DNA of 64,000 nucleotides from Coffea arabica (lineage: Eukaryota > Streptophyta > Magnoliopsida > Gentianales > Rubiaceae), in assembly GCF_036785885.1 (NCBI RefSeq), contig NC_092310.1, positions 2,170,001-2,234,000 on the forward strand. Direction: 5' to 3'. This document shows, one piece after another, positions 10,623 through 50,983 of the stretch. Under the pieces are notes generated by a model. That model worked only from the letters and a program-made list of their open reading frames with translations, searched no databases and was not told the DNA's origin. Both the position numbers and the translations under genes were made by a program. Positions within the stretch are counted from its first letter, which is position 1. Every line of letters begins with the position of its first letter.

Positions 10623-12431
10623 TCATATTCCACTGTGATCAGCCAACAGTTCAACAAGTGGGTTAGCTTCTCCTAATGATGATGAATTTACTTTATCAGA
10701 TACAGTAGTTTGATGCAAGTTATGATCTATTTCTAACCAACTAAGTGCTTGTTCTTTGCTAACATTCCACTCATTCATTATCTGTCTCAACCTCATCACA
10801 GAGTCCCACTTGCCAAGTGCTGCATATATTTTTGACAGTGAAATGTAGATTGCTGGTGATTGAGGATTCAACTGAAGAAGGTGTTTTGCTGCTATTCTTC
10901 CCAGCTCTATATTTCCATGCATCGTACAAACACCAATTAAGGCATTCCAGACATGTTCGTCTGGTTTGCATGGCATCTTTCTTAGATGATCCATTACCTC
11001 ATGGAATCGTCCTGCTCGACCTAAAATATCAATTAAGCAAGAATAATGTTCTTGATCTGGAACAATATTGTGATCGCGATTCATTGACTCAAATAACCTA
11101 AGTCCCTCGTGCACAAGCCCTGAGTGACTACATGCACTGAGAAGAACAAGAAAGGTGATTTTGTCTGGTCTAACGCCCGCTGTCACCATTTCAGCAAACA
11201 AATTTATTGCTTTCTCACCAGAACCATGCTGTGCAAGTGCAGATAACATTGTGTTCCACAATACTACGTCTTGTTTGTCACCCACAACATCAAAAACTTG
11301 CTTTGCAAGTTCCAGACAACCACACTTTGAATACATGTCAATGAGAGAACTTAAAACTATTGAATTAGGCCTAAATTTAATCCTTATCAAATGTGCATGG
11401 ATTTGTTTACCATGTTTGAGTGAGGCTATACTTGCACTAGCACAGAGGCAACTACTAAAAGTAAACTGATCAGGTCTAATGCAAAGCATCATCATCTTCA
11501 TAAACAAGTCAAGGGCCTCATGTCCCTTGTCATTACGAGCATAACCTGAAATCATAGCAGTCCAAGAAACAGGATTCCTTTCAGGCATCACATCAAATAA
11601 CACCCTGGCTGACTCCATATCACCCCATTTGGCATATCCTGATATCAAAGTGGTCCAAGCCAGAACATCCCTTCTTCCCATCTGATCAAATAATTTCCTG
11701 GCATCACCCAATTCCCCACATTTAGCATATGCATCAACAATGGAACTAGAAAGGACCACATTTAGTGAAAACCCTGCAACCAAAACTTGAGAGTGGACCT
11801 GCTTTGTTAGCCTCAACTCCTTCAACTTCACACAAACCGTCACCACTCCAGCAAAGCTATACTCATTAAACCCAATAACTGACCTCCTCAACTCTTTATA
11901 AAACCTCAAAGCTTCATCACATATACCACTCTGCGCGTAGGCAATTACCATAGTATTCCACGATACAACGTCCCTCTCGGGCATTTTATCAAACAACCTC
12001 CTTGCAGGCTTTACCATAAGTTGTTTAGCATACCCAGAAAGCATGTTGTTCCAAGAATACAAATTTCTCAAGCTCATTTTATCAAACACTAAGCGTGCTT
12101 CAATGTGATCGCCGCATTTACCGTACATATTGATCAAATGATTGGCTAAAAATGTATTGGGGTGTTTGAGACCAGTAACCTTTAGATGGAGGTGAACCCA
12201 TCTGCCCAATTTCAAATTCTTGGACTCAGCACACTTCTGTATGAGAAAAGCTAATTTTTTACAGTCCAAACGAATGCCCTTTTGCGCTAAGAGGTCTAAA
12301 GACTTGACAGCTTCTTGAAGGTGACCTTGAGAGCAAAGATTCAGAAAGTTTTGGACTATGCAAGTATTATTCTTGTTACTGGGCTTAAATGACGGCTTGA
12401 GAATGCGAGTTGGGGAGAAGAGAAAGGGCAT
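10623..12431 (-). CDS. PLS-class pentatricopeptide repeat protein (At2g21090-like)
   Basis: Intronless gene for 602 residues. The start is the first in-frame ATG (12431), giving MPFLFSPTRI; an in-frame TGA lies upstream. PPR/PLS repeats fill most of the protein: HLINMYGKCG, LYSWNNMLSGYAK, DVVSWNTMVIAYAQ, SSIVDAYAKCG, VSWTAMISGYAR, SSLIDMYSKCG and ACSHSGL. A C-terminal E-type region (KPDEHVWNALIG, then about 100 residues) has no DYW domain. The order and wording of the repeats closely resemble Arabidopsis At2g21090. PLS-class proteins bind organelle RNA sequence-specifically and often serve C-to-U editing; an E-only protein would need a DYW partner. The Pro/Ser/Lys-rich N-terminus fits mitochondrial or plastid import, though which is unclear. 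The RNA target is unknown. Confidence 0.92.
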   Translation of the reverse strand: MPFLFSPTRILKPSFKPSNKNNTCIVQNFLNLCSQGHLQEAVKSLDLLAQKGIRLDCKKLAFLIQKCAESKNLKLGRWVHLHLKVTGLKHPNTFLANHLINMYGKCGDHIEARLVFDKMSLRNLYSWNNMLSGYAKQLMVKPARRLFDKMPERDVVSWNTMVIAYAQSGICDEALRFYKELRRSVIGFNEYSFAGVVTVCVKLKELRLTKQVHSQVLVAGFSLNVVLSSSIVDAYAKCGELGDARKLFDQMGRRDVLAWTTLISGYAKWGDMESARVLFDVMPERNPVSWTAMISGYARNDKGHEALDLFMKMMMLCIRPDQFTFSSCLCASASIASLKHGKQIHAHLIRIKFRPNSIVLSSLIDMYSKCGCLELAKQVFDVVGDKQDVVLWNTMLSALAQHGSGEKAINLFAEMVTAGVRPDKITFLVLLSACSHSGLVHEGLRLFESMNRDHNIVPDQEHYSCLIDILGRAGRFHEVMDHLRKMPCKPDEHVWNALIGVCTMHGNIELGRIAAKHLLQLNPQSPAIYISLSKIYAALGKWDSVMRLRQIMNEWNVSKEQALSWLEIDHNLHQTTVSDKVNSSSLGEANPLVELLADHSGI

Positions 12432-13937
12432 TGCAGGATGCAAACATATGGGATGGCGGCGGCACGCTGTTGTTCTTCATTTATGTTGTGATGAAGTCAT
12501 TGAAATCAACCGCTGTAATATGAGCTCCGGCGAGTATCGCCGGTTCAGATTGGCCGTAGGGAGAGCAAAATGCAGAACCCACTAGTCAAAATTATTCATA
12601 AATGGAAATCATGCAAATTTTCTAATGATTTACCGTTTTCAGTGTGTAGTGTTATGGGTGAGCTGGTCCAAAAGCGCAACTAGACCTAAGATAATACAAA
12701 TACTACTTATTATGTATTATTGCTCACTAAACAATGTACAAAAAAACTCAGCCAATAGGCATTGGTTAAGATGAGGTCTAAGTTTTGAGGAAAAAAATGA
12801 AAAAGTGAAGGTAAATGTGAAACATGAGAGAGTTTAGACTAAACATTTTTTAGATGCTTATAGAACTTTTAACGAATCGAACGGTTTAAAGTCAATCGTT
12901 TAATAAACAAATCGGTACTCGAATATTTATACAAATAAACGAATTGAACTCGAATAATATTCATAACTCATTAATTAATATTAGAGTTGAACTCAAACCC
13001 TATTCGTATAATATACAAACAGAGTTTGAACACCAAATATTGTGTTCGATTCAGCTCGTAAAAATTCTAGCACTCGAAACCTAATTAGTGTATGAAATTT
13101 TCAATGGTTTTATAGAGGTTGGAAACTTTTTATAGGGTTCATATAGAGTTCATCTAAATGGTTGAATGTCCGTTCCAATTGCAATCCCAAACTGAAGGTT
13201 TCGTTATTTGTTGTGCAAGAAGGAAGCTTGATGTGAGTTGGTCACACTTATGTTAGTCACTTTCTCTTATTTATTTTCAAATTTAATTGTTTGGTTGTTG
13301 AGTAAAAGTATTTGTCATAAACAAATCAACTTTTATCTTCTTAAGTTAATTAGTGAAAGTGAGGATGATTGTGTCATATTCAATTTGAATATAAAAGGAT
13401 TAAAGGTACATTTCATATTCTTAATAGCAATTGTACAATTTAAATCGTTTCCATTTGTTGAAAAAATAAAATGTACAATTTAAACACTGTAAAATTAAAA
13501 AATGAAGGAAAAAATCAAATTGTGATCTTCATTTGACTCCAGCAACTTTCGTAGACTAACAAAGAACATAGTCACATTTATCTTTAGGTGGAAATAGGAA
13601 AGTTTGGTGCTAATGATATGAATAGCAATTCACGCGCTTCTTCCATTCACCAAAAAAAAAAGGGAATAAGAATGCCTATTCTTTTTCAATATGATTATTC
13701 ACGAATAGCTAGCCAAAGCAGAAACTCGCAGACTCATTCTTTGTAATTTCAACTTCAGATGTCTAGATTTCTATCTTCAAGGGTTTTAAACCAACTCAAT
13801 TCATGTACATCACCTAATCCACCTTTTTGGTTCATATGCGGGTATAGATAAATATTTTCAATTAACTCCTCTTTTCAACGCATTGATTTCTGAACTTTCT
13901 CTGCCTCATTTTATCACTACAAAACATGTTTAAAAAA

Positions 13938-32900: not shown

Positions 32901-35900
32901 GAGTATAACAGGCTAATACCAAAATAGGAGGAAATTTTAAAGAGAAAATAAATCTTATATTGTTGAGAGTTGCCTTCTTTGACAACTTTGTTAGCCTGGA
33001 TTTCATTGTCTTGGTTTTGCCGGTATTTTGAATCACATGTATCCAAATCTGGTTCAGAAAGTTGTTTAATTCTTGCCTAATTAACATGCTGTCACAAGGC
33101 TGAAGTAGGCAAAAGAAATTACATCTGCAAAATAGTGGAGATGTTTGAGGGAACTGATGGCATGCCGTATTTCACTGCTCAGTGGTTTTACAGGGCCGAG
33201 GATACTGTAAGGCTTGACAATCATTCCTTTAAATATCTGTATTTTCAATTTCCATTTTCTGAATTATACTGCCACTTCCTGTGGTCAGATCATTACAGAA
33301 TGTCATGAATTTATAGACGAAAAGCGAGTATTCTTTTCTGAAGTCAAGAATGACAATCCTTTGGACTGTCTGGTTAAGAGACTTAGGATCGCCCGGCTGC
33401 CGCCAAATGTATGCTGACTTACCTAAGAAACGTCTTTTCAACTTTGAGCTTCTGTAAACCTTTTTAACAGGACCGGCTGCTATTTCAGATGGATTTGGAA
33501 TGCAAGGATGCTGCAAAATCAAATTGTGACTATTATTATGACATGATGTTCTTAGAGCCTCACTGCACGTTTATCAGCTTGCCGCCTGGTAACTTTTTTT
33601 CCTTTATATATTGTCAGCAACAAATTACTCTTTCTTTTTTCACAAACTTTATAGTGTAAAGTTTTGGATGATATTTATATTGTCCAGAGAATAATGGAGC
33701 TGGAAGTGACTCTGGCTCTACAATATCGAGTGAAGCTGATGCTACTGGAGCAGTGGCTAGTGGTGTAGAGGTCTCCCAAGAAGCAAACCACTTGGAGATG
33801 AGGCTACTGGACCTGTATTCAGGCTGTGGGGCAATGTCCACTGGACTTTGCCTGGGAGCTTATAGCACTGGTGTTAAACTTGTTACCGTAAGGACAATAA
33901 GTTTTCTTGAACTTCTTTCTAGTTGTTATGTCGTTCTTTACCATTAAAATAACTTCTCAATGCAGAAATGGGCAGTTGATGTAAACAAGTATGCATGTGA
34001 AAGTCTAAAATGGAACCATCCGGAGACTGAGGTGTATATTGCTCCATATGGTTTTGTATCCATTATTTCTATATTTATAACCTTGTTCAGGATACATTTT
34101 TCTTCTTGATAATTTCTTTTTGATTAAGGTACGAAATGAATCTGCCGAGAACTTTTTGCTTTTGATTAAGGAGTGGGAGAGGCTTTGTGTCTCCTATGCA
34201 TTAGTAGAAAGCAATGTTCTACCACATCCGTATGTTAGCTCGTCAAATGAGCAAGTAGATGAAGTTGGTGGAGATGATGAAGATGACGATGTTGATGATA
34301 GTGATGGTAATAGTTCTGAAGTTTTTGATGTCAAAGAGGTATTGGCTATGTGCTATGGGGATCCAAAAGAGAGTGGTGCTGTTGGTCTTTACTGTAAGGT
34401 ATACTTGTTGGATTATCAGTGTACCTTTATATCTCTATCTTGCCTTTTTAAACATTTTCAATTAGCTTTGGCTTGTAGTAATGTCTCTAAAATGCAATTT
34501 AGATTCGCTGGAAAGGTTATGGACCAGATGATGATACATGGGAGCCTATAGACGGTTTAAGGTAGGCATTAAGTCTGGTTTGCTTAGTGATTTCTTGATG
34601 TTATTTGTTTCCTTGAAACAATCACTGACCTTCTATACGTGTTTCTTAGTGATTGTCAAGAGAAGGTGAAGGAATTCGTCACTAAAGGTTACAAAAGAAA
34701 GATTTTGCCTTTGCCTGTAAGTTCAAACATCTTCCAAAGAGATGTGAAGTATACTGGACTACTGCAGATTATGTTATCTAATTTGTTGGTTTCTTGATGT
34801 CTTGCAGGGAAATGTCGATGTTATATGTGGGGGCCCTCCTTGCCAAGGAATAAGTGGGTTTAACCGATTTCGGAATACAGACCAACCATTACAAGATGAA
34901 AAAAATAAGCAGCTTGCCGTCTTCATGGATATTGTGGCTTTTCTAAAGCCTAGATTTGTGTTGATGGAAAATGTTGTTGATTTGATTAAGTTTTCCAAAG
35001 GGTATCTTGGGAGGTATGCTTTTGCTCGGCTTCTTGCTATGAACTATCAAGCACGACTTGGAATGATGGCTGCTGGTGCTTATGGTCTCCCACAGTTTAG
35101 AATGCGTGTCTTTATGTGGGGTGCTGTTCCTAAAGAGGTGATACTCAGTTTTTCTTTTTCTTATTTATTTATTCAGGTTTCAAGGTGTCTTTCCTCTCTC
35201 ATTAGCAGTACCTACTCTTCTATTAATGCAGAAGTTGCCTCAGTACCCATTGCCTACCCATGATGTCGTTGTGAGAGGGGTTGTTCCCAAGGAATTTGAG
35301 GTAGGCTATGGATGGTAGAAAAATATTATACAATTTGATTTTTGCTTCTTTATTAGCCTAAATCTTCTGTGTCAATGTAGTCCAATACTGTAGCTTATGA
35401 AGAAGGTTCAAAAGTTGAATTGGAGAAGGAGCTTTTTCTTGAAGATGCTATTTCTGATCTTCCACCGGTATATATTGCCAATACTAAGCTTTTTTGAATT
35501 AATGTATGCCTCTAATGTTCCTTATATGCTTAAAACTCTCTCTTTATCTTGCAAACTTAACATTTAGGTTGAAAATGACGAGCCACGAGATGAAATGCCA
35601 TATGGTGGTGCGTCCAAGACTGAATTTCAAAACTTCATCAGATTGAGGAAAGATGGTAAGTTCATATTTCTTTATTTCTCCTTTCAGTACTTCTGGATTT
35701 ATAATTTTCAATGCCTTATTTTAAACCTGGAATTCTTGCTTTGTCTTGGTGAGCATGGTAACGTGATTCCAATGGATGCTAAAAAAGTCATCTAACATTT
35801 TTGATCCAGAGCAAACAATACACGTTTGCTGGTGCTTAAAAGTTTCCAGCTATATTTGTCATTCATTGTTTATGTTGTGAAAAAAGTTAGTTTACCAACT

Positions 35901-41288: not shown

Positions 41289-44200
41289 CTATGTCTTCAA
41301 GGGCTCAATATGAAGTCTGACAGTTGACCTGTCTGATGATCTCATAGCTCTTAAATGACTCTGCAAATCTGCATCTCTGGATAGACAAATCCAATTGTTA
41401 TTGACATCTTGATACTTGATCTCATAACTTTCACCACTCAGGTTGAGCCGTTTCTTTATCGCATCTCTGAGTTGCATCAGTCCTGATGAAAGAGAGAGCT
41501 GAAACTTTATCATGACTTCTTTGTATGTTGCCTTTATTGTCATGAGGCTTTCATTTTGCATTGTCATAGCTTGTGGCATAGGAGGTGAAGCAGAAGTAGC
41601 AACTTCCTCAGGAATCTGATTGGTGCATGGCTCAACAGCAAGTCTGATTGTTGGGTTTTCCTGTGGTTTCATGATAGTCACACAATTATGCAAATCATTG
41701 TCGCTGGTCAATGGAATCCATTCATTGGGTTCAGCTAGACACTTGATGTCAAAGCTGTCACCGCTTAACTTGAACTGCTTCATGACTTCGTTTTTCAGTT
41801 CCATCAATTTTGAAGAAAGGGAAACCTGAAGCTCTACAGTCTCCTCTTTATATGTTGCCTTTATGGTCATGATCCTCTCATTCTGCACTGGATTTATCTG
41901 CAGCATAGGGCTCCCAACAGAATCCCTGGAACTTTCAAGGTGTTGATTCTGAGTAGGCTCAAGAAGAACTTTGATTGTATTCTTCCTTTGTGACACCATA
42001 TCAAACATCAACTTCTGCAAGTCCACATCATTGGATACTAAAATGTAGTTATTATCTTCCTTTTGATACTTGATCTCAAAACTTCCAGTTGTCAAATTTA
42101 ACCTCTTTGTCACTTCTTTCTCAAAATCCATTATCCCTGAAGAGAGAGAGAGTGGAAACTTAATCATGTCTTCCTTAAATGATGCCTTTATCATAATTGT
42201 GCCTTCATTTTCTGGTGCTGGTGGTGCCTTTATACTCTCATTGTGCACTGGATTTATCTGCAGCATAGGGCTACCAACAGAACCCCTGGAACTTTCAAGG
42301 TGTTGATTCTGAGTAGGCTCAAGAAGAACTTTGATTGTATTCTTCCTTTGTGACATCATATCAAACATCAACTTCTGCAAGTCCACATCATTGGATACTA
42401 AAATGCAGTTATTATCTTCCTTTTGATACTTGATCTCAAAACTTCCAGTTGTCAAATTTAACCTCTTTGTCACTTCTTTCTCAAAATCCATTATCCCTGA
42501 TGAGAGAGAGAGTGGAAACTTAATCATGTCTTCCTTAAATGCTGCCTTTATCATAATTGTCCCTTCATTTTCTGGTGCCGGTGGTGCCTTTATACTCTCA
42601 TTCTGCACTGGATTTATCTGCAGCATAGGGCTCCCAACAGAATCCCTGGAACTTCCAAGGTGTTGATTCTGAGTAGGCTCAAGAAGAACTTTGATTGTAT
42701 TCTTCCTTTGTGACATCATATCAAACATCAACTTCTGCAAGTCCACATCATTGGATACTAAAATGTAGTTATTATCTTCATTTTGATACTTGATCTCAAA
42801 ACTTCCAGTTGTCAAATTTAACCTCTTTGTCACTTCTTTCTCAAAATCCATTATCCCTGATGAGAGAGAGAGTGGAAACTTAATCATGTCTTCCTTAAAT
42901 GATGCCTTTATCATAATTGTGCCTTCATTTTCTGGTGCTGGTGGTGCCTTTATACTCTCGTTCTGCACTGGATTTATCTGCAGCATAGGGCTACCAACAG
43001 AACCCCTGGAAATTTCAAGGTGTTGATTCTCAGTAGGCTCAAGAAGAACTTTGACTGTATTCTTCCTTTTTGACATCATATCAAACATCAACTTCTGCAA
43101 GTCCACATCATTGGATACTAAAATGTAGTTATTATCTTCATTTTGATACTTGATCTCAAAACTTCCAGTTGTCAAATTTAACCTCTTTGTCACTTCTTTC
43201 TCAAAATCCATCATCCCTGATGAGAGAGAGAGTGGAAACTTAATCATGCCTTCCTTAAATGCTGCCTTTATCATAATTGTGCCTTCATTTTCTGGTGCTG
43301 GTGCTGCAGGGTGAGAAACAGAAGTAGTGCCTTCGTCAGGAGGTAAATCAGAACGTGCTTGGTCTCTATTACGTGTTCTCTTATTGTGGTTTTCAGATCC
43401 TCTTGCATCTTCGTGAGAAAGGGAATGATCAGCTTTTCTCTTGTTGGTCTGTCTATCTATGCTACGCTCTCTGCATAACTGCTTTTCTTCATGTATGACA
43501 ACTGTAAAAATGAGAATTTGAATCAAGATTAATACCAGGTGATCTTGTCAGCCATATAAGCAAATGAACAATGCAGTCATACTGAAAGCTAGGTTCAAAT
43601 TCAAGATAGCAAACTCACTATCAGACATACACTCAGCATCTTCAAGTTGCCTTCTTGACTGGTTTCTGGGAACCTTCACTCCTGGTGCCTTTACCATGTC
43701 TTCATTATTTTGAAGAACAGGAAGATTGTCCTGTGTTCGTACATTCTCACAGTTGTTATGTGAGAATCTAAGCAAAGGTTGAGATCCGGTTGTTGCACAC
43801 ATTTCCAAAGATTCATCCAGTCTATCAAGTTTAATTATGTTCAAAGGTGTATCCGCCCCTGATTCTTGTACAGATGCAACCTTGAAACTCTGAAAGTTCT
43901 GCTGTACTGCAGCTAAAAAAGCTTTCAAGAGGGTCTGTGGTTTCCCATAAGAAGGTTGGTACGGGCACAGAAAAAACTCTAGCACATAAACTTCATTTCC
44001 TGTGGATCTACTTTGCAGACAGACAGCAAAAGAGCCAGTTAAGTTAACTTTGCGTGCACTAAGTACTAGGGGGTACTCATCAATACTTAACTGCTTCACA
44101 TCTTTGCAGAAGCATGAAGCACCAGATGTAAATGCACTCCATACAACACTCTGTCCTTTCTTTAAGCCAAACTGAATGCAATCCTTTTGGAAGGAGGAAA

Positions 44201-46331
44201 CCTTCTTGACTGACATAACTGATCCCCTTTCACTTGTGCACATGACACTTTCATTATGGTTCTCTCCAGTGCTTGTGAACCAGGTCTGAGCAAAACGTAT
44301 ACAGTGTGCATGACAGAATGCATTCAAACCGTTCTCAATTTGACTGAGGTCAAATTCATGCTGAGAAATCTGCTTTGGACATTATCAGTAAGAAAAGGAA
44401 TCATACAGTACGAAAAGCGAGTCAGCAATAAAATAACTTAACTGATACATGTGAAAAAAATGTGGCTAGATACAGTCACCACTTACTCTATCCTTGTGAA
44501 GTGACAAATGTGCATCACAAATCCTCAGTCCTACGGCCTGCAGGAAAGAATATAACTATCACTATACATTTTTGAGATCATCATAGTGAAATGATTTCAG
44601 AAATTGGAATGAAATTTTCTATTAAGACTTGTAGCATGCAATGCAGGTAAACATGACAGCTTTATGACCGGATTCGACTATACAAGAACCCAACAAGAAC
44701 AAAAGAAGTCCTGAAATTATACGAACATCGCTTACATCAGTACTAACACAGAATCCTATCTGATGGATGTGAAGCTGAAACCCCTTTGCTATTTAAGGGG
44801 GATCTTCACTAAAGGGGGATCTTCACAGGATCATCATGCCAGCTATACAGCATGGTAATTGAAACATAAACAAGTCAAATAGAAAGTTCTTGTCCTTCAC
44901 ATGAAAATTTTTCCAACGCCATGAGTTACAGCTCAGACTTCATGGGACCAAACGTTGAAAAGGTTTCCACATCATAGATCATAGCTTAGACATGAATGAG
45001 TAATTGTTCTAGTGCGAAAGCAAGAATTCATAATAACTTTCACTATCATAGAGTTCAGCAGAAGCTATGCCACTTCAAATATCCTCCACTTCAAGCCAGA
45101 GATGTCAATTATGCATAAAATAGATAGCTTCAGCTCAGAAAAACTCCAATTATTTGAAGACAGCTGACATTTCAGGAAATGTGTTAGCCAAGTTCTACAG
45201 CTAATGTATCTGAAAATGACTCTGTAGCACAAGAAGCACAGATTACTTCAACTGACAGAACTTTTGCAATCTTTTTGGCTTCCTGATTTCATCCAGCGAT
45301 ATGAGAATCTTGCTAAGACAATTTTTTAGGGCATGAAAGTAATGGAATTTGATGCCAACCTTTGTAAAAGCTCAATTAGCTGATTCTTTTGAATAAACAT
45401 ATCATTTGCTGGCAGAGAACAAAAGAAGAAATGATCTTCGCGTCACTTCCAATTTCTAAAGAACAAGGAGTTACAAAACAGAAAAAGCTCAAAAGAGAAG
45501 CTTGTTCCCCTTGCATCCAAGACCAAAGCATTTACAACAAGAAAAATTAGCAGGTTTTTTGGGCAAAATTTACAATAGAAGCACAATTTCCATATGGAGA
45601 GGCGAATTAAACATGCTAGTACTTTATCCTTGGTGAATAATGGGTTGAGTTAGAAATCGAACCTTGAAAGCATCATCAATAACTTTTCCAATTGCATCAG
45701 TAAAGTAATAATTCCCATCCCACGAAGTAATCAGCTCAAGCACACCGACACATTGATCCCTAACTGACTCAAAAACTGGCAAAGCCAGGTATCCATTTAC
45801 ACCACATCTAACAGCAGCATCCCTCAGTTTAAACTCTTTAGATGAGTAACAAGACACATATGGACTAAATTCTGAAACCCCATTTCTAAAAACCCGTCCA
45901 ACAGGGCCAAGCTCTTCTTGACAATCAAGATCATATCTGTGTTCCAAACAACGCTTCCTATACAAACAGAGTCCTTCGGTGAGCAGACTAATACCAAAAG
46001 GAAGATCTGAAGTCACAAGAAGCTGTTGGGTGCCTATTGTTTTGGGCATCCACAGTTGCACTAAAGTGGGGAAGAGAAAAACACCCAAACCCTCAAGTGC
46101 AGATTTGATCTTTTCTTTGATTGCCGCAATCCCTTTGTTGTTGTTGAATTGAATAGATTCATCTTGGCTACAGAAGATCATAAGATGGGAGATGGACTTC
46201 TGGTCTGATACAGAAAGTTGACTTGGCATGAGACTGATGAACTCAGAAACTGAATATCTTCCTCTAAGATCATCAACATGGATGAGTAAAGACTGGTTTT
46301 TTTCCATCTTTGATACTATCTGGGATTGCAT
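41289..46331 (-). CDS. NIN-like (NLP) protein lacking RWP-RK, with six tandem PB1 domains
   Basis: Four exons: 46331-45663, 44537-44487, 44369-43619, 43501-41289; in-phase CDS for 1,227 residues. Residues 1-223 and the following ~220 match the N-terminal GAF-like region of NLP nitrate-response factors (LGPVGRVFRNGVSEFSPYV, YSSKEFKLRDAAVRCGVNGY, CVGVLELITS; then CHAHCIRFAQTW, FCKDVKQLSIDEYPLVLSAR, FAVCLQSRSTGNEVYVLEFF). NLPs then carry an RWP-RK DNA-binding domain; here residues ~440-560 are a short basic/acidic linker with no RWPxRK motif, and intron 3 is only 117 bases, too small to hide it. The C-terminus has six PB1 domains (about 565-646, 685-766, 805-886, 925-1006, 1034-1115, 1144-1224), where NLPs have one. 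Each keeps a beta-1 Lys (IMIKA/MTIKA) and an acidic OPCA-like segment (VSNDVDLQ, SRDADLQ). PB1 domains join proteins head to tail; a scaffold or dominant-interfering role is inference. Confidence 0.85.
41880..43286 (-). repeat. Four PB1-coding tandem units on a 360-bp period
   Basis: Within the last NLP-like exon, units begin at 43286, 42926, 42566 and 42206 (minus strand), each 360 bases, the fourth running into PB1 number 5. They differ by only scattered substitutions (for example AAFKEG / ASFKED / AAFKED), all in frame and with none introducing a stop. Linkers (SVGSPMLQINPVQNESIKAP and then PAPENEG) are repeated with the domain, so the duplicated unit is PB1 plus linker. Confidence 0.93.
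44538..45662 (-). other. Intron 1 of the NLP-like gene
   Basis: A 1,125-base intron between AAG|GTTCGA and cctgcag|GCC. I see no exon or repeat in it. Confidence 0.75.
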
Positions 46332-48240: not shown

Positions 48241-48498
48241 TTGGCTACTGGCATCGATTTTGCCAAGCATATGAAGTTTCACACAAAATAGTGATCACAG
48301 ATTACACCAAATTCAGGCTCCAATTCGTTAAATTTACATGTCATGTCATGTGTCCCCTTCTGACAGAGTATGCGGTAATTTGGAAACCGCAGGGACAAAT
48401 GCCACATGTTTACTGCATAGTATAATGATATCCAAAATCAGTCAAAATTGGTCCTCATCAAGAACGGCAAAAGAAAAACAAAATCGGTGTAAAGTCTG

Positions 48499-50983
48499 AT
48501 GATTTCCCGCCAGATTGAGACCCTGTTACAACGGTCAAAAACCACTAGTCATCTTCTTCAACTGCAATCTCTCAGCATCAAAACAGCTCTAGATCATCAA
48601 GAACACTTCCTTTCTAGACTTATACTTGCATCGTCTTTAATATCACTGCAAATTTCAAGAGAAATCTTTGACAAATCACCGATTACACCATCACGTTTTT
48701 CTCGGAATACACTGATTCAAGGGTATTCAAAGAGCTCAATACCATTAGAGTCGGTAAAAATGTTCGTTGATCTTCAAAGAAGTGGGATAAAACCCGACAA
48801 CTATACATACCCTTTTGTGCTCAAAGCTTGCGGGCGTTGTTCAATGGTTGGAGTAGGTGGGACTCTGCATTCAATGGTGTTGAAGATGGGTTTTGATTGG
48901 GATTTACATATATGCAATACACTGCTCAGAATGTATGGAGGGCTTCATCTGATTGCGTATTCGAGGCAAGTGTTTGACGATATGTCTCAAAGAGATGTGG
49001 TTTCTTGGAGTTCTATGATTGCTGCTTATGTTAATTGGTACGTTCTATCCTTAATCAGTTACCGAAGTAATGCTAATTCTTTTGTTTTATTTCCTTCTTA
49101 CTTGTCTCAGCAATTAGGGGTTCGTAATTTATCTTCGAAACACCTAACTTCCTTTGCAATGAGTCGTAGTGGGGTTGTTCATGGTAGAAAGCCCAACTAC
49201 GGAGTGTACTTTGTTTAGAGAAGGGAAGGAGAAAATCAGTTGGAGTATGGGAGTCAGACTTCTTAGTCGACTCCTATGTTTTTGGACGTCCATTAATATT
49301 ATTAATATTTTTTTGGCTTCCAGCAACAAAGGCTATTATAATGCATAAGTATCATGCTGCACAAATTCCATTGAAAGATAATGACTTGTGCATAGATCGT
49401 ATATAATCCAATTGATCTTGTGGTACTTTGCTTATGCTCTTCATTTTTCTTTTGCTTTTACTTTCTGCTAATTCTGGCCAGGGGATATGGTTTAACTCCC
49501 TAAACAACTTGTTCAAGCTCTATTAGTCACAACATGCTTTTACGCGATCACAGAGTCATATACAACTTATTGCATTTTAATTACTGGACTCCCGAAAACA
49601 TTATTATAATATTTAATTATCAAGAATTAAGATGAAGGTTTTGGTATATGGTAGCAAAAGGCAATAAAAATTAATCTACTTTTCCAAATGAATGAGTCTC
49701 AATCTTGTTAACTGCAGCATATTCTTAATGTTTATAATATAAGGTGCCTAAAATTTATACTCTTTATGGGCACTGCTTCTTCAATTCATTAGCTACTATT
49801 TTCTAGGTTTTAGGTGCCTTATAGCTTGTATGGATGTAGATACGATCACTGTAAAAAAATTTCTTCCGCACTGTTTACAGCTGACCTTGTTTACAAGTTA
49901 GCTTGATCGATTAAGTGCTAGACACCCTTGAGAACTTGTTATATGGGGACTTATGGCCGTCGTCTTGTGAAATTGTGCTGATTGTTGGTCTCAAAATGAA
50001 AATTGAAGTAGTGGAATGGTATCTGATGATTTTATTGTCGGCTAAGGGGATTATCTTTTACTTCCTTTGTATTCTTTAGCATGTAGTTAAGGCTCTGTTT
50101 CCAATATTTTAACATTTTATAGTCTTGAAGTTTTTGTTTGACCTATAACTTGACTTTGAATGATTACAGTAACTGTCCTGTAAATGCTTTAACTGTTTTC
50201 CAAGACATGATCATACAACATGAGAAGCCAAACTCCATCACTTTGGTTAGCCTGCTTGCTGCATGTACTCGTCTCCTCAATGTCAAGCTTGGAGAATCCA
50301 TTCATTCCCGCATTCTAACTAACGGTGTTGGATTGAATGTTGAACTGGGAACTGCTCTTCTTGAGATGTATGCAAAATGTGGTCACATGCTGGAAGCGTT
50401 CCTTATTTTTGATTCAATAAGTGATAAAAATTTGCAGTCTTGGACTGTCATGATTTCTAGCCTTGCAGATAATGGCTTTGGGGAAGAAGCTATGTCATTG
50501 TTTTCAAAAATGCAAGAAGCTGGCCTGCAGCCTGATAGTAAGTCATTTTCTGCAGTTCTTTCTGCATGTAGTCACATGGGTCTTGTTGATGAGGGAAAAG
50601 ATTATTTTGATAAAATGGTAAAGGTTCATAATATCAGGCCAACCATGGAACATTATGGTTGCTTGGTGGACATGTTTGGTCGTGCTGGAAAGATTGAAGA
50701 AGCTTATCAGGTTATAAAGAGCATGCCCATGGAACCTAATTCTATTGTATTGAGGAGCTTCATCAGTTCATGCAGATATCATGGCCGTATTGTTTGTGAA
50801 GAAAAACATCTGAAGCAACTTCTTAAAATAGAGCCTGATGTTGGAGCAAATTACGTGCTTGCTGGGAGTATGTGCTCTCTTTCTGGCTATTGGAGTGACA
50901 CTAATGACCTTAGAGTTTCCATGAAAGAAAAAGGTTTAAAGAAGGTTCCGGGGAGCAGTTGGGTGCAGCTGTCTAGTGCCTAA
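48499..50983 (+). CDS. PLS-class pentatricopeptide repeat protein, one intron
   Basis: Exons 48499-49037 and 50170-50983 encode 450 residues; the intron (49038-50169) has donor TG|GTACGT and acceptor gattacag. Splicing joins SSMIAAYVNC to NCPVNALTVFQDM, restoring an uninterrupted PPR motif; without splicing the frame stops at 49216-49218. Repeats visible: FSRNTLIQGYSK, LHICNTLLRMYGG, RDVVSWSSMIAAYVN, GTALLEMYAKCG, LQSWTVMISSLADNG, ACSHMGLVDEG, HYGCLVDMFGRAG. An E-type region follows and ends KVPGSSWVQLSSA, with no DYW domain. This family binds organelle RNAs, usually for editing or processing. The N-terminus (MISRQIETLLQRSKTT) is basic and Ser/Leu-rich, suiting a mitochondrial or plastid address. 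Most PPR genes are intronless; an intron within a motif is a little unusual. The Arabidopsis counterpart is not recognised. Confidence 0.88.

Follow-up and report, generated by a model that had tools for sequence, protein, structure and literature searches.

A Coffea arabica gene of NIN-like protein descent with six PB1 domains and no recognisable RWP-RK domain, a possible PB1 hub

In the plant response to nitrate, NIN-like proteins (NLPs) act as central switches; the canonical NLP6 and NLP7 combine a GAF_NLP region, an RWP-RK domain and one C-terminal PB1 domain with a conserved lysine. Where NLP7 PB1 domains meet, one face contributes K867 and the opposite one D909, D911 and E913, with D922 besides (PMC6393987, PMC8200828); these contacts run from lysine to OPCA, and a protein that has lost either face is monomeric (PMC8200828). 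Our subject is a minus-strand gene at 46331-41289 of a 64,000-nucleotide window from Coffea arabica (contig NC_092310.1, positions 2,170,001 to 2,234,000), the window being the whole stretch of DNA that was analysed. Its product shares with NLP6 and NLP7 the GAF_NLP region, the intron phase at RWP-RK and a C-terminal PB1 with the conserved lysine, but it has no recognisable RWP-RK, six PB1 domains rather than one, a phenylalanine in place of the histidine of the nitrate pocket, and PB1 units that have lost most of their acidic OPCA residues.

Nearest in our trees are divergent asterid NLPs (from Camellia, Cornus, Cinchona and Solanum, and paralogues in Lamiales), most of which keep a recognisable RWP-RK. 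An earlier reading of this DNA, made from its letters and referred to here as the sequence-only reading, had described Arabidopsis PB1CP as an RWP-RK-less PB1 protein that damps NLP7; we found no paper on it, and the same description, as a PB1-only protein, sets it apart from the coffee protein. NLPs with two PB1 domains appear in RWP-RK surveys of peanut (PMC7474775), sweet-potato relatives (PMC12428392) and a foxtail-millet relative (PMC11148446), but for peanut and Ipomoea triloba the surveys report RWP-RK as well, and two PB1 domains do not make an array. Rice OsRKD7 and OsRKD10, reported without RWP-RK in one cultivar, are of RKD rather than NLP type, and no PB1 array is mentioned in the available part of that account (PMC12450915). 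In the open-access literature we found neither an RWP-RK-less NLP clade nor an NLP PB1 array. Such a branch may have been overlooked because NLP surveys select on RWP-RK: one was restricted to sequences with RWP-RK and PB1 together (PMC8200828), and the sweet-potato survey searched with RWP-RK and PB1 profiles and reports both in all its NLPs (PMC12428392). Ipomoea batatas proteins with GAF_NLP and PB1 and without RWP-RK do exist in databases.

The coffee gene has four exons with GT/AG borders, joined in one frame of 1227 amino acids with a single terminal stop (Table 1), and the coordinates, strand and phase of the four-exon gene proposed earlier were right. The protein is not new to public databases, where it is present under an NLP6-like name: P0001 of C. 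arabica (1223 amino acids, "protein NLP6-like isoform X2") equals the window gene except for an exon-3 donor 12 bp earlier. A retrocopy origin was ruled out, since introns are present, one of them at the NLP position and phase.

Pfam gave no RWP-RK (PF02042) match in the window protein at E<=1, although its filters drop most matches above an E of about 0.1, and a local RWP-RK profile gave none either. Six-frame scans of the whole window reached at best 7.5 bits (E 0.47) with the canonical profile, with nothing near the expected place, and 6.3 bits (E 1.2) with a profile of degenerate copies; the canonical rows from which the former was built score about 135-144 bits. In a genome-wide PF02042 search no match was listed on the window's contig (C1) among the 150 of 218 candidates scored. 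The Pfam, local-profile and six-frame scans rule out a hidden RWP-RK exon, and the alternative exon chain with RWP-RK that the sequence-only reading had raised as an objection to itself was absent from all six frames. It is very improbable that the gene model overlooked an RWP-RK exon or that the assembly got the 360-bp array wrong. A near-identical four-copy repeat is an error-prone place for assemblies, and P0001 apparently comes from the same assembly and hence provides no independent check, but neither the protein nor the six window frames give an RWP-RK profile match, a remnant sits where the domain is expected, and the homeologous gene carries three near-identical units of its own.

That remnant lies at the start of exon 4. 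In four of the six coffee loci fetched (L009-L012), the second half of RWP-RK stands directly behind an intron acceptor, in a pattern that by eye reads two bases, eight codons and Cys-Arg, in phase 1; exon 4 of the window gene has the identical phase, eight-codon spacing and Cys-Arg. Under a fixed-register profile (10 of 62 canonical and 33 of 51 degenerate RWP-RK sequences), in a test designed after the coffee motif had been seen, the exon-4 start scored 22.3, against 6.1 for the next best window of the protein and 80.8 for a canonical sequence, and 0/50,000 shuffles reached it (maximum 13.7). When gaps were allowed (2000 shuffles per protein, only part of them reported), Paulownia had a longer and strong remnant of 22.7 bits, with shuffles at most 7.4. 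The homeolog gave 2.8 bits (reached by 4 shuffles) and Henckelia 2.9 bits (5); P0004, P0003 and P0005 were marginal (46, 71 and 84 shuffles), P0041, P0150, P0151, P0044 and P0045 stood at chance (351, 438, 575, 295 and 399), and P0040 gave no match. In the AlphaFold model of the homeolog, residues 424-558, at the expected RWP-RK place, are disordered, and with so unstructured a linker there is no folded DNA-binding domain. Given the match in phase and register, the remnant score, the Paulownia remnant and the unfolded linker, RWP-RK most likely decayed in place and was not cut out. The loss claimed by the sequence-only reading thus stands, refined from clean removal to erosion.

That reading knew of no NLP described with such a build; the protein is, however, not a singleton. 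The search for the same architecture in relatives that it had proposed, run as three protein searches, recovered RWP-RK-less GAF_NLP and PB1 proteins from several plant groups (their order names, such as Lamiales, are the taxonomy we assume). GAF_NLP and PB1 were found, and RWP-RK at E<=1 was not, in 13/13 clade proteins scanned with Pfam, namely the window protein and 12 relatives (the homeolog, Cinchona, Lithospermum, six Lamiales, two Ipomoea and the record P0151). PB1 domains number five in the homeolog (P0002), two each in Cinchona P0003, Lithospermum P0005 and P0151, three each in Phlomoides P0004, Paulownia P0039, Salvia P0040 and P0041, Perilla P0150 and Henckelia P0152, and one each in Ipomoea P0044-P0047. 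The 640-amino-acid frame of P0151, on a record of 3509 bases, continues through the position where the exon 3/4 intron would lie, so that the record may be a transcript. Found as it is in several related plant groups, this type of protein gives the impression of a functioning family branch and not of a gene in ruins.

Trees were built from NLP rows only, with no non-NLP outgroup. The final one drew on 55 of the 165 proteins gathered, each represented by its N-terminal region and trimmed ahead of RWP-RK and PB1; five of 60 rows were left out (P0006, P0162, P0030, P0152 and P0059). Coffea, Cinchona, Lithospermum and six Lamiales-type rows, P0151 included, formed one group with support 95/94, and Ipomoea stood beside it (83/65); Henckelia fell inside the same group in an earlier 60-row tree. 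The final tree carries a long-branch warning (Nicotiana with Cinchona P0155/P0157), and Lithospermum, a long row, joins Rubiaceae with support 81/9. The nearest neighbours of the group are divergent NLPs with a degenerate RWP-RK, and so the domain seems, from these sequences, to have weakened first in the surrounding part of the family and then to have fallen below recognition in the branch that contains coffee. At least 51 homologues score 25-75 bits on the canonical RWP-RK profile, with P0034 at 17 and P0028 at 9. That profile finds no match in 27/164 homologue ids, some of them outside the clade; two of the 27, P0008 and P0159, match the degenerate profile, and some of those outside the clade may be incomplete gene models. 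Grouping among divergent NLPs, together with the intron phase and register of the four canonical coffee loci, therefore marks the window gene, as far as sequence comparison can tell, as an NLP by descent, yet by domain content it is no NLP transcription factor.

The six PB1 domains in one 2.2-kb exon that had been claimed were recovered by Pfam (PF00564, E 6.3e-75, 248 bits) as six stretches, all within the 2213 bp of exon 4 and the last of them C-terminal. The array also drew weak Pfam matches to other families, NYN, PilZN3 and Ig-like among them, which were treated as spurious. In a tree of 45 PB1 domains and 89 columns, which is weakly resolved, the first Cinchona unit joined coffee units 1-4 and the second joined coffee unit 6, and each of the three Lamiales PB1 positions grouped across species. 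The Camellia arrays (P0038 and P0042) formed their own group, which argues that PB1 arrays arose more than once, with at least the Camellia and coffee expansions separate on this comparison. Camellia P0038, with seven PB1 domains, and P0042, with four, are NLPs that still have a degenerate RWP-RK. A sequence search of solved structures with Cinchona P0003 gave no match, and a fold search returned, among the best 50 of 1531 rows, mostly ubiquitin-like arrays and tandem GAF proteins at low template modelling (TM) scores, a result consistent with a PB1 array yet unspecific to it.

The two contact faces of these domains have fared differently. Equivalents of K867 are present in 6/6 window PB1s, as the basic face of a type I/II domain demands, and the acidic OPCA residues are not consistently there: D909 in 1/6, D911 in 4/6 and E913 in 1/6, with the D922 equivalent, read by eye, apparently kept in 6/6. 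Across the clade (32 domains from 12 proteins, the window included and the homeolog left out) the lysine was kept in 31/31 ungapped domains, D909 in 16/31, D911 in 20/31 and E913 in 2/32. Canonical PB1s (n=61, 57 distinct) had K in 61/61, D909 in 61/61, D911 in 61/61 and E913 in 60/61; that set was chosen by a pattern holding K, and with this letter left open K was present in 62/62 matched domains, with 2/64 unmatched. The acidic motif is intact in the canonical coffee NLPs L010 and L012, and L009 and L011 lie outside the motif pattern used. Residue for residue, then, the basic face is kept across the clade and the acidic face is weakened, most in coffee.

The same anatomy would fit a scaffold or co-activator, in which the array assembles DNA-bound NLPs into larger complexes and raises their output. 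PB1-mutant NLP7 needed far higher expression to rescue the nitrate response in plants (PMC6393987), and arrays occur separately in the RWP-RK-less branch and in Camellia, where a degenerate RWP-RK persists, both of which speak for such a role; the loss of most acidic residues from the coffee units favours capping over the building of chains, but is not decisive. We consider a scaffold unlikely, while ranking it first among the alternatives.

The N-terminal half keeps its NLP character, with a Pfam GAF_NLP match at E 2.1e-42 and 145 bits against a cut-off of 24.1. The nitrate pocket is of the form H-L-Y, the histidine being H404 of NLP7; the H-x-L and the 30-residue spacing from L to Y that the numbering of the pocket implies were seen in 8 canonical rows. 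Mutation of the NLP7 H-L-Y pocket impairs the nitrate response (PMC9731675). In the coffee protein the pocket reads F-L-Y, not the H-L-Y of an NLP7-type sensor, and the histidine is replaced by phenylalanine in 14/14 aligned clade rows (not all independent, since both coffee homeologs and three Ipomoea rows are among them) versus histidine in 19/19 canonical rows. Other divergent NLP rows (n=21) keep the histidine in 6 and have phenylalanine in one; the three Ipomoea rows have Ile at the second pocket position, and the pocket Y is kept in 54/54 aligned rows. This replacement implies that nitrate binding by the coffee protein may be altered or lost. Of the retained nitrate-sensor region proposed earlier, the GAF folds are thus borne out, by Pfam and by the homeolog model, but the sensor itself is not.

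The altered pocket also bears on the possibility of a partner switch, whereby the array binds mainly non-NLPs, such as TCP20-type proteins or further proteins with PB1 domains, and acts outside nitrate signalling. The PB1 domain of NLPs also binds the HQ region of TCP20 (PMC7051960), and the coffee PB1 sequences are strongly diverged, in a clade whose pocket histidine is uniformly phenylalanine. On the other hand, the lysine required for PB1-PB1 contact has stayed in every ungapped clade domain, and we hold a switch of partner to be a shade less likely than a scaffold.

Comparison with the homeolog (G000:C2, L045) speaks for function. The two genes differ in exon length by a single 360-bp unit, and neither has a stop or frameshift; the AlphaFold model of P0002 shows two GAF-like domains and five PB1 folds, mostly with a predicted local distance difference test (pLDDT) of 80-96. 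The Nei-Gojobori ratio of nonsynonymous to synonymous change (dN/dS) between the two genes is 0.281, from 30 synonymous changes in 688.2 sites and 33 nonsynonymous in 2632.8 sites; about 50 of the 63 changes would be nonsynonymous under neutrality (binomial p 1.7e-6, a crude test). For the last two PB1 domains dN/dS falls to 0.05, with one nonsynonymous and five synonymous changes. The gene is, by these rates, under purifying selection between the subgenomes, and a pseudogene was rejected on the dN/dS. An explanation in which the gene is relaxed and on its way to becoming one, its PB1 copies the product of slippage, could draw on long branches in the relatives, a PB1 number that varies between homeologs (6 and 5) and the high dN/dS between units; it is nevertheless improbable in view of the low dN/dS of the whole gene and of its last two PB1s, and of reading frames open in both homeologs and in several plant groups.

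We put at about even the chance that the gene encodes a functional, non-DNA-binding, multivalent hub of the divergent NLP6/7-related branch found in coffee, Cinchona, Lithospermum, Ipomoea and Lamiales, mainly basic-faced in its PB1 domains, which would likely buffer or cap ordinary NLPs. RWP-RK most likely decayed in place, and the C-terminal PB1 was multiplied, to six in the window gene. With each unit offering mainly a basic face, the array would polymerise poorly with itself and would bind ordinary NLPs at the acidic (OPCA) face that their PB1s keep intact, holding several NLP molecules at once; it would in this way buffer or cap NLP oligomers and damp nitrate-driven transcription, and the damping would not itself be nitrate-gated. 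Since DNA binding and the pocket histidine are both lost, we judge nitrate-ungated buffering or capping most likely, scaffold-type activation next and a partner switch third. The hub that collects or sequesters NLPs, as the sequence-only reading had it, accords with the anatomy, the purifying selection and the occurrence in several groups, but the retained nitrate sensor of that reading is not supported.

Several observations weigh against a capping hub. NLP7 with a mutant PB1 still transactivates in protoplasts (PMC6393987), and capture through PB1 therefore need not silence NLPs. D911 is kept in four of the six units of the coffee array, so that some acidic-face binding may remain; the clade often keeps D909 and D911, only the loss of E913 being general, and a mainly basic face thus appears to characterise coffee more than the clade at large. 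Among the array units dN/dS is 0.73-0.89 (pairwise, three of the four units), which indicates that the extra PB1 copies probably drift under weak constraint. As to the decay of RWP-RK, the Cinchona remnant is invisible in the fixed register (score -0.7), and with gaps allowed the coffee remnant is weak to modest, at 2.7 bits, with 4/2000 shuffles reaching it.

Table 1. Positions in the window of the gene, its domains and its repeats
Feature	Positions	Strand	Remarks
Exon 1	45663..46331	-	Start codon and N-terminal GAF-like domain, residues 1-223; GAF-like fold in homeolog P0002 model
Exon 2	44487..44537	-	51 bp; GTAAGT donor after 44487
Exon 3	43619..44369	-	GAF_NLP domain and start of linker; donor used is GTGAGT after 43619
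GAF_NLP domain (PF22922), residues 243-402	43884..44363	-	Pfam scan
Phe307 codon	44169..44171	-	Aligned to H-L-Y nitrate-pocket histidine (NLP7 H404)
Exon 4	41289..43501	-	2213 bp; holds the eroded RWP-RK remnant, the linker, all six PB1 domains and the stop codon
Eroded RWP-RK remnant	43434..43501	-	In register with second half of RWP-RK in canonical coffee NLPs
360-bp tandem array	41875..43307	.	4.0 copies, 97% matches; holds PB1 domains 1-4; repeat detection
PB1 domain 1, residues 565-644	43041..43280	-	Pfam and local profile
PB1 domain 2, residues 685-764	42681..42920	-	Pfam and local profile
PB1 domain 3, residues 805-884	42321..42560	-	Pfam and local profile
PB1 domain 4, residues 925-1004	41961..42200	-	Pfam and local profile
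PB1 domain 5, residues 1035-1114	41631..41870	-	Diverged; Pfam and local profile
PB1 domain 6, residues 1144-1223	41304..41543	-	Diverged; pairs with last Cinchona PB1 in PB1 tree

Elsewhere in the coffee genome, a satellite-like array with a 1330-bp unit lies at G000:C7:6640019-6796983, with more than 100 partial RWP-RK matches over about 157 kb (150 of 218 candidates scored) and, in L050 (C7:6700000-6709900), eight near-identical copies within 9.9 kb. Those units that were read carry the final exon of a divergent NLP, half an RWP-RK and a PB1, with the PB1 frame broken in some; another divergent NLP locus, at C7:6.86 Mb, lies close to the array. Divergent NLP-like clusters with degenerate RWP-RK lie at C11:56.33-56.58, C12:55.88-55.97, C13:37.04-37.08, C7:6.86 and C8:6.58 Mb of G000, with one PB1 match in each of five 9.9-kb stretches (L046-L049, L051). 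The window itself also holds open frames that, by eye, resemble a DNA cytosine methyltransferase exon and two pentatricopeptide-repeat (PPR)-type genes, at 34748-35260 (+), 10626-12476 (-) and 48493-50980 (+).

For the family as a whole, we suggest tentatively, as rather less likely than not, that several asterid plant groups share a hitherto unrecognised NLP branch that gave up DNA binding and nitrate gating and acts as a multivalent PB1 comb capping the oligomers of ordinary NLPs, with the number of PB1 domains (1 to 6) tuning how many NLPs are held, and with the Camellia array a separate case. If the proposal is true, such a branch, unable to bind DNA and rich in PB1 domains, would be a natural regulator of the step at which PB1-driven NLP oligomers are limited.

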